Part shown: positions 54,359 to 57,505 of the stretch, in pieces | Numbering within the stretch: position 1 is the stretch's first letter | Layout of the letters: every line of letters starts with the position of its first letter | Assembly (NCBI RefSeq): GCF_945836005.1 | Contig: NZ_OX241534.1 | Location: 1,598,275-1,662,274, forward strand | Direction: 5' to 3' | Origin: Candidatus Nitrosacidococcus sp. I8 | GTDB taxonomy: Bacteria; Pseudomonadota; Gammaproteobacteria; Nitrosococcales; Nitrosococcaceae | DNA: 64,000 bases | Made by a program: the position numbers and the translations under genes | The notes under the pieces: generated by a model | The model's input: only the letters and a program-made list of their open reading frames with translations | What the model was told of the DNA's origin: nothing | Database searches by the model: none

Positions 54359-54871
54359 ATGGACGATCTTTTTACTAAAGCTTCGAAGATTAAACTAGTT
54401 ATTTTTGATGTAGATGGTGTTTTAACCGATGGAGGACTTTTTTTTGATTCTAATGGACGAGAAAGTAAAATCTTCTATTCTAGGGACGGTCATGGAATGA
54501 AAATGCTACAAAATACCGGAGTCAAAATTGGAATTATTACAGGACGTACCTCTGATGCTGTTCGTCAAAGAGCAAAAGATTTAGGTATTGTTTGTGTATA
54601 TCAGGGGCAAAAAGTAAAATTAGCTGCCTATAAAGAATTGATTGATGAGCTTAAATTTGAATCTTATGAAACTGCTTATGTAGGAGATGATATAGTAGAT
54701 CTAGGTGTTATGAAACAAGTAGGCTTATCAATTGCCGTGCAGGACGCTCATCCTCTAGTAAAAGAGCAGGCCCATTGGATAACCCCTAATGTAGGAGGAA
54801 AAGGGGCTGCTCGTGATGTTTGTGAACTCATCATGAAGGCACAGAATACCTTCCAATCCCAATTGGAGTAG
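54359..54871 (+). CDS. kdsC: 3-deoxy-D-manno-octulosonate 8-phosphate phosphatase
   Basis: HAD-family phosphatase that releases Kdo. The 170-residue protein has motif I DVDGVLTDGG with catalytic Asp pair, motif II GIITGRTS and motif IV YVGDDIVDLGVM. The ATG at 54359 is preferred; a TTG at 54350 would add three residues. It is cotranscribed with kdsD and the lptCAB genes. Confidence 0.96.
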   Translation: MDDLFTKASKIKLVIFDVDGVLTDGGLFFDSNGRESKIFYSRDGHGMKMLQNTGVKIGIITGRTSDAVRQRAKDLGIVCVYQGQKVKLAAYKELIDELKFESYETAYVGDDIVDLGVMKQVGLSIAVQDAHPLVKEQAHWITPNVGGKGAARDVCELIMKAQNTFQSQLE

Positions 54872-54875
54872 TACT

Positions 54876-55469
54876 ATTAGTCGTCGATTCCAATTCAGAA
54901 GTATTGTTACAGTCCTTTCTATTATCTTCTTGATAAGCTGGACAACTTTAATAAAAAAACCGCTCCCCAAAAAAGTTGGCCATAGTCCACACAATAAAAA
55001 ATATAGTATTGACTACTTCATGGATAACTTTATATCCACTGGAATAGATGAGCAAGGATTACCACATCATACTTTAAGTGGCCCTAGGATGGTTCATTAC
55101 TCTGACAATGATGTGATTGATGTAACTACTCCTTATATCGTCTTTTATCAGAAAGATGTTTCTCCAAAATGGAGTGCTATTTCTGAAAGAGGGCTGACTA
55201 AAGGTAACAGTGATAGAATTTTCCTTGTAGGAAAGGTAGTTATTCACCAGCTAGATGAAAATGGTATCGAACTAGATGATATGACAATTTTTACTAGAAA
55301 TGTAAGGATAGAATTGGAGAAAGAATATGCTGAAACTAGCCAACCAACCACTATGTTTAGTCCTTCAGGGAGAACAGATTCGGTAGGTGCTCGACTCTAT
55401 TTTAATGAAGATCGAGTAGAGCTCATATCACAGGTTAAAGGAGATTATGTATCAACAGGTAAGCCTTAG
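54876..55469 (+). CDS. lptC: LPS export bridge protein LptC, apparently starting at AUU
   Basis: Bitopic inner-membrane protein that passes LPS from LptBFG to LptA. The open frame runs from 54837 to 55469. The first canonical start (TTG 54930) would cut through the membrane anchor. An ATT at 54876, seven bases after GGAG at 54865-54868, gives 197 residues beginning with a basic SRRFQFR segment and a hydrophobic helix (SIVTVLSIIFLISW), the expected LptC N-terminus. The rest (DNFISTGIDEQGLPHHTLSG, then DNDVIDVTTPYI) fits LptC. Family length is about 190. It overlaps the next gene by 23 bases. Confidence 0.85.
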   Translation: MSRRFQFRSIVTVLSIIFLISWTTLIKKPLPKKVGHSPHNKKYSIDYFMDNFISTGIDEQGLPHHTLSGPRMVHYSDNDVIDVTTPYIVFYQKDVSPKWSAISERGLTKGNSDRIFLVGKVVIHQLDENGIELDDMTIFTRNVRIELEKEYAETSQPTTMFSPSGRTDSVGARLYFNEDRVELISQVKGDYVSTGKP

Positions 55470-56748
55470 TTTTATTATTTTTGGGCTTATTATTTTAAAT
55501 TTAAACTGGACAATCGTACTTGCCTCTAGCAATAGTACTGAAGAAAAACCTATTCATATTGATGCTAATCGTGGAGAGCTAGATGATCGTAAACAAACAG
55601 CTATCTATTACGGCGATGTTCATCTTACTCAAGATGATATGAAAATCGATTCTGATACTTTAACCATCTTCTATGATGAGAACAAAAAAATTGAAAAAAT
55701 GATTGCAGTAGGAAAACCTGCATGGTTTCACCAATTACCTAGTGATGGCTCTAAAGAAACAAAGGCCAAAGCATTACGTATGGAATATGTAGATAATAAA
55801 TCAATGATATATCTCTTTAAAGAAGCCCATGTATGGCAGGGAGAGGATGATTTTACAGGAGATTATATAGAGTATGATACCGAGCGTCGTATTGTTAAAG
55901 GGCAAGGAGGAGAAAAAGGAACAAGTACAGGGCGTATCCATGTAACAATTTATCCTAATGAAGAAAATAGTACTGCTCAAAAAGATAAATTAGGTTTTAT
56001 AGCAAATACATCTAAGAAAGAGAAAAAAGTAACTAAAAACTCTTTACCAACTAATACAAACTTAGAGAATCATACTAGTAATAAAGAGCACCCTGAGCAA
56101 ATAAAAAGCGATGGCTATACTAAGACAAAATTAAATCTTCGATCAGAGGCTAGTACAAAAACTAAAATATTAGCACTATTACCAGAACGTACACCTATCA
56201 CTGTCCTTAAGACGAATGGCGAATGGTCCCAAATTACAGCTGCTATTAGCGGAAAAATTTTAAAAGGCTGGGTAGTCTCACGTTTTATTAATATTGAAGC
56301 TAAACATCAAGAGTTAGAGGACTTAAACTTATCAGAACCTCAGACTAAGATAATGCCTGAGAAAGATGACATTAATGCTAAAGAAGATATAAAACTGCCT
56401 AAGAATGAAACAATAGTTACAACAAAGGATAAAGGTACCTTAGAGATAATACCAGAGGATGAATTAAAATCTTCTGAAATAGAAAAGTATGAAATTGAAG
56501 AGACTCCAGCACTTGAGGGCGATCTCTCCGATGGGCGTACTAAAACATGGCTAAAACTACTTGATCGCCCTCATCGTAAAGGTAAAGAAACTGCTCTTAT
56601 TCCGCCCCGAACTCAAGTGGTGATTTACGGTCATCAGGGACCTTGGGCTCATATTGCTACCCTTGTGAATGGAAAAGCAGTAAAGGGTTGGGTAAAAGAG
56701 AATGATATTCGGCTTAAAGAAGGGGATGATCTAGAAGAGTCATCCTAA
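55447..56748 (+). CDS. lptA: LptA (OstA-like) LPS transport protein fused to two bacterial SH3 domains
   Basis: A 433-residue exported protein. Residues 1-27 are a signal peptide, and about 33-175 form the OstA/LptA domain ([41 protein letters not shown]) that builds the periplasmic LPS bridge. A charged linker follows. SH3-like domain 1 is about 224-283 ([20 protein letters not shown] ... [10 protein letters not shown]) and domain 2 about 361-425 (ending [10 protein letters not shown]). Typical LptA is about 180 residues without SH3 domains. It lies between lptC and lptB in the standard operon. The SH3 domains may bind peptidoglycan or partner proteins. Confidence 0.85.
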
Positions 56749-56752
56749 ATTT

Positions 56753-57505
56753 ATGAATCATGTAGTAAATAAATTATCTATAAGCAAACTTGCTGCTAAT
56801 CATCTTGCAAAATGCTACCAATCTCGCTGGGTGGTAAAAGACGTTTCAGTAGAGCTTTTAAGTGGTGAGGTAGTAGGTTTATTGGGCCCTAATGGTGCTG
56901 GAAAAACTACTTGCTTCTATATGATAGTAGGATTAGTTCCTCCAAATAAGGGGCAAATTTCTTTAAATCATCACAATATCACTCACTATCCAATTCATCG
57001 TCGTGCCAAGTTAGGTATTAGCTATCTTCCTCAAGAGGCATCTGTATTTCGTAAACTTACTGCAGCTGAGAATATTACAGCCATTGTTGAAACACGAAAT
57101 AATCTAACCAAAGCACAACGTGATTACTTAGTAGATAGTTTACTTAATGAATTGCATATTACTCATGTAAGGAATACGCTAGGAATGAGTCTCTCAGGAG
57201 GAGAGAGAAGACGAGTAGAGATTGCAAGAGCATTAGCAGTAGAGCCACAATTTATATTGTTAGATGAACCATTTGCGGGTGTGGATCCTATTTCGGTGTT
57301 AGACATACAGGATATTATCCGCCACCTTACTGATAGAGGAATTGGCGTGCTTATCACTGATCATAATGTTCGAGAAACTTTAGGCATTTGTCAACATGCC
57401 TATATTGTGAATGCGGGAGAGGTGATTGCTAGTGGCAAGCCTCAAGAAATTCTTAATAATGAACAAGTCAAAGAGGTCTATCTAGGTCATAACTTTAATC
57501 TATAA
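56753..57505 (+). CDS. lptB: LPS export ABC transporter ATP-binding protein LptB
   Basis: ATPase powering LPS extraction by LptFG. The 250-residue protein has Walker [10 protein letters not shown], signature [15 protein letters not shown] and Walker [13 protein letters not shown], with [21 protein letters not shown], all hallmarks of LptB. An N-terminal extension of about 10 residues is present. It is 4 bases after lptA and 29 bases before rpoN. Confidence 0.96.

Follow-up and report, generated by a model that had tools for sequence, protein, structure and literature searches.

Results

The lptC locus and its reading frame

The DNA analysed here, a stretch of 64,000 nucleotides that we refer to as the window, comes from a genome assembled as one 1.85-Mb contig and carries kdsC, lptC, lptA and lptB in the order expected for LptC (Table 1). 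The lptC frame, which codes for the lipopolysaccharide-export protein LptC, scored 128 bits against the Pfam profile (E 3e-37, cut-off 21) and 113.6 bits against the NCBIfam profile (E 7e-33, cut-off 38), and it is the single lptC of the genome; a second, weak match to PF06835 is LptA. The LptA protein is 433 aa long and carries SH3-like domains behind its LptA domain. Extensions of this kind are also present at the LptA C-terminus of relatives, both in the family and in its sister family; counted by eye, the number of SH3-like domains is two in the window, three in genome G001 and about one in sister-family and Nitrosococcus-like genomes.

Table 1. Genes and sequence elements around the putative lptC start (window coordinates).
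Feature	Position	Strand	Remarks
kdsC (KDO-8-phosphate phosphatase), upstream of lptC	54359..54871	+	NCBIfam TIGR01670, E 1.4e-51
GGAG, Shine-Dalgarno-like	54865..54868	+	7 nt before ATT; equal spacing in 6/6 family genomes
kdsC stop TAG in the window genome	54869..54871	+	From the sequence
lptC	54876..55469	+	197 codons from ATT plus stop; matches Pfam PF06835 and NCBIfam TIGR04409
ATT, inferred lptC start codon	54876..54878	+	ATT in 6/6 family genomes
TAG in the kdsC frame, overlapping ATT (ATTAG)	54878..54880	+	Site of the relatives' kdsC stop TAA
LptC transmembrane helix, approximate extent	54903..54950	+	Hydropathy; preceded by the basic segment ISRRFQFR
lptA (LptA domain and SH3-like domains)	55447..56748	+	Overlaps the end of lptC by 23 nt
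lptB-like ABC ATPase	56753..57505	+	Completes the order kdsD-kdsC-lptC-lptA-lptB

The lptC frame is opened by an in-frame stop, TGA at 54834-54836, and between this stop and TTG 54930, its first canonical codon, it contains no ATG, GTG or TTG. This absence had been pointed out in the initial annotation, which proposed that lptC starts at an AUU seven bases after GGAG, ahead of a basic segment and a hydrophobic helix, and each of these observations was borne out: the spacer between GGAG and ATT is indeed 7 nt, and the N-terminus read from ATT, ISRRFQFRSIVTVLSIIFLISWTTL, has, as judged by hydropathy only, a basic start followed by one hydrophobic helix. TTG 54930 sits within this hydrophobic segment. 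The peak hydropathy over 18 residues was 2.2 in the lptC frame vs at most 0.9 in the other two frames, and in all six genomes of the family the hydrophobic stretch at this site is confined to the lptC frame.

Comparison of the proposed lptC start within the family

The family sample comprised six genomes of three genera, including the window genome, whose genus is represented by one assembly; ammonia monooxygenase was found in all six. The codon homologous to the proposed start is ATT, 7 nt after GGAG, in every one of them. The five relatives, inspected for an ATG at this codon, thus all have ATT, and the comparison lends good support to a start at AUU 54876. Columns in which all six genomes share a codon one mismatch away from ATG were, besides this ATT, limited to one AAG/AGG column, located just after the upstream stop of the window. 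The lptC frame is closed upstream in G003 and G004, which, like the window, have no canonical start ahead of the helix. This does not hold for G001, G002 and G005, where canonical codons are present upstream in the lptC frame, inside kdsC; in G002 and G005 there is also a possible ATG eight codons downstream of the ATT. None of these codons is common to all six genomes. As only a single assembly is available for the window's genus, the ATT might have been a sequencing error for a true ATG, but the five further assemblies, which belong to two other genera, have ATT here too, and G003 and G004 lack a canonical start ahead of the helix as well, which makes an error in the window extremely improbable.

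The region between the ATT and the first canonical codon looks protein-coding in the relatives. Differences between G001 and G002 were distributed as 6/2/14 over the three codon positions in codons +1 to +27 (P=0.003) and as 4/1/8 in codons +1 to +16 (P=0.03); this was the strongest pair, the others were weaker, and the pairs are not independent of each other. The test covers the relatives, the N-terminus of the window being too diverged for it. A start at TTG 54930 or further downstream, by which LptC would be deprived of its full anchor, is the choice of a gene caller limited to ATG, GTG and TTG, as this is the first canonical codon. However, the codon lies inside the hydrophobic segment without a Shine-Dalgarno (SD) sequence, the relatives have ACC, ACG or ACA in its place, and the sequence upstream of it is under coding constraint in these relatives, all of which makes such a start very unlikely. 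Another in-frame candidate, which the initial annotation did not mention, is ATA 54846, found 6 nt after AAGG. Initiation there would add ten residues; the spacing from AAGG is acceptable, and AUA is a known rare start, as in infC and ccpN of S. aureus (PMC13009471), but each of the five relatives has GCA or GAA at the corresponding codon, and we regard the use of this ATA as quite unlikely.

Local RNA folding around the start revealed no pattern consistent across the six family genomes. Scanning the genome contigs with the LptC protein yielded only three distant loci of the Chromatiales type, all with ATG, and no further members of the family.

The end of kdsC and the choice of the ATT codon

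Read in the lptC frame, the end of kdsC (..TAT TAA) is ATT ATT AA in the five relatives, whose kdsC stop takes its first T from the last letter of the second ATT (ATTAA). Since the kdsC codons CAT TAT TAA dictate the ATT in these five of the six genomes, its conservation there does not count as independent evidence for a start. By comparison of the C-termini, the window kdsC ends with ...QSQLE-TAG, three codons short of the ...QLEKHY-TAA of its relatives, leaving a gap of 4 nt between the stop and the ATT, as opposed to the ATTAA overlap in the other five. The first of the two ATT codons is ACT in the window, and the second was kept despite losing its overlap with the used stop. This favours the second ATT as the start, albeit in a single lineage. 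The spacing from GGAG is also better for the second ATT (7 nt) than for the first (4 nt).

All six genomes have an open lptC frame across the kdsC overlap (beginning at 54837 in the window), as would be expected if LptC arose from kdsC by a +1 frameshift, as a KdsC-LptC fusion with no start of its own. Against this, no slippery sequence was noticed by eye in the overlap, a phosphatase would sit ahead of the helix, and the arrangement of GGAG, 7 nt and ATT would be left unexplained. We therefore consider a frameshift origin highly improbable.

Initiator tRNA and other genes with probable AUU-type starts

A search for the anticodon arm of the initiator tRNA gave one match, with anticodon CAU, in each of the six family genomes, and the match in the window genome is a tRNA-Met according to ARAGORN; a second, unusual initiator tRNA, sought in these genomes via the anticodon arm, was not found. 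Two other genes of the family resemble lptC. There is no canonical start before the conserved N-terminus of infC (L042, L034, L036-L038 and L041), which appears to start with AUU in the window genome and with AUC in the other members. Likewise, pcnB has no ATG, GTG or TTG before its conserved N-terminus in any of the six (L046-L049, L051 and L053), and its start is probably AUU or AUA. Judging by these sequences, lptC would join infC and pcnB as a gene started at AUU. The predicted duplex of GGAG with the anti-SD sequence ranged from -5.9 to -7.4 kcal/mol at lptC in the six genomes, vs -12.1 kcal/mol for infC.

Start codons of lptC across the class, in the sister family and in genus g125

As a coarse control, 109 lptC genes, one per family, were sampled across the class. 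In 108 of them an ATG, GTG or TTG was present among the 30 codons preceding the LptC profile start, although such a codon need not be the start; the window has none. The one exception led to genus g125, in which all six genomes (L202, L203-L206 and L199) have no canonical lptC start just before the helix. A conserved CTG, 5 nt after GAGG, overlaps the kdsC TGA there (CTGA), and g125 appears to have an independent CUG start. The ATT beside this CTG was rejected as the g125 start, since some members have ATC or AGC instead.

In the sister family (Methylophagaceae-like), TTG was found 17 nt before the kdsC end in 48 of 48 readable junctions, a count that leaves out two junctions at contig ends, which could not be read automatically. 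An ATT in this region was also rejected as a start, as it varies (ATT, ATC or ACT) while the TTG is constant. In the draft assembly G048 of the sister family (L026:1-60), near a contig end, kdsC has an early stop, the usual lptC TTG is CTG, and there is no canonical lptC start ahead of the helix. The contig end of L013, near the start, carries what appears to be transposase sequencing-adapter sequence (AGATGTGTATAAGAGACAG). A possible history is that an ancestral TTG, written by a T-ending Leu or Ile codon, disappeared when that codon changed to CTG; the same change may have created the GGAG, after which the lptC start would have shifted to the ATT.

Discussion

We consider it probable that the ordinary initiator tRNA starts lptC translation at AUU 54876, in coupling with the termination of kdsC. 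Ribosomes finishing kdsC would be placed on the lptC start by the GGAG that lies in the final codons of kdsC, and would reinitiate at the AUU, read by the ordinary initiator tRNA with its CAU anticodon. This would yield LptC at full length, with its basic N-terminus and single membrane anchor, and its synthesis would probably proceed at a low rate, coupled to kdsC. We infer the coupling from the kdsC termination site, which adjoins the SD sequence and the AUU and so suggests reinitiation, and the low rate from published AUU efficiencies: ATT reached about 0.3% of the best start codon in reporters (quoted in PMC10666635). IF3 overproduction lowers reinitiation, and does so less when an SD sequence is present (PMC2268962). 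Among the points against the proposed start, the SD sequence has only four bases, compared with the eight-pair duplex of infC, and just one genome has escaped the kdsC constraint.

Bacterial chromosomal genes for which an AUU start is supported are few. Our literature search found no report of lptC with such a start, most subscription journals being outside its coverage. The gene shares with infC (AUU, AUC or AUA) a rare AUN start after an SD sequence and the lack of a canonical start upstream, but infC has the stronger SD and its autocontrol was shown experimentally in E. coli, whereas lptC, which overlaps or abuts the gene before it, is not known to be linked to IF3. In E. coli pcnB, the AUU start limits expression (Binns and Masters, 2002, as cited in PMC13009471). 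The rare AUU is a common feature of pcnB and lptC, and pcnB too is devoid of a canonical start in this family, yet it is a different gene in a different setting and its AUU is not at a stop-start overlap. Conserved non-canonical starts among related species have also been described for cvfC1 (AUU) and ccpN (AUA) of S. aureus (PMC13009471), which, unlike lptC, have extended SD motifs and evidence from ribosome profiling. Gene overlaps of -5 nt that include ATT (ATTGA, ATTAG and ATTAA) have been raised as something that might explain annotated cases (PMC10666635). The relatives have exactly ATTAA at kdsC/lptC, and the window sequence keeps ATTAG; in contrast to those cases, ours is a specific gene pair backed by conservation, and the stop used in the window is 4 nt upstream.

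The initial annotation went further and suggested that a true AUU start was retained because IF3 discriminates against AUU, providing control of LptC at the level of translation. This idea would add to the coupled AUU start that we favour and is no alternative to it. Such discrimination is known from E. coli infC (Butler, 1987, as cited in PMC1780047), Streptomyces sigR, with its GTC start, is described in PMC5472188 as repressed through IF3, and in the window the ATT has outlasted its overlap with the used kdsC stop. On the other hand, the kdsC overlap by itself fixes the codon in the relatives, and one unconstrained genome is too little to show selection, so that we find retention for the sake of IF3 control doubtful. 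Coupled, weak and possibly IF3-sensitive expression of lptC is plausible, and, on a par with it, the AUU may be a mere by-product of the kdsC overlap.

The lptC gene is essential in E. coli, and a weak AUU start would fit poorly with such a role unless it is aided by coupling. An AUU at the stop-start overlap of a gene of this type would be a concrete case for asking whether reinitiation makes AUU adequate. Gene callers limited to ATG, GTG and TTG would give a wrong LptC N-terminus, with the anchor missing, in these bacteria. As a tentative and rather unlikely extension, lptC may be the third gene in which the family has kept AUU, one that the window kept even after the overlap was lost, so that the level of LptC would stay low, in coupling with kdsC and perhaps also with IF3 activity, with g125 having independently come to a similar arrangement with CUG.
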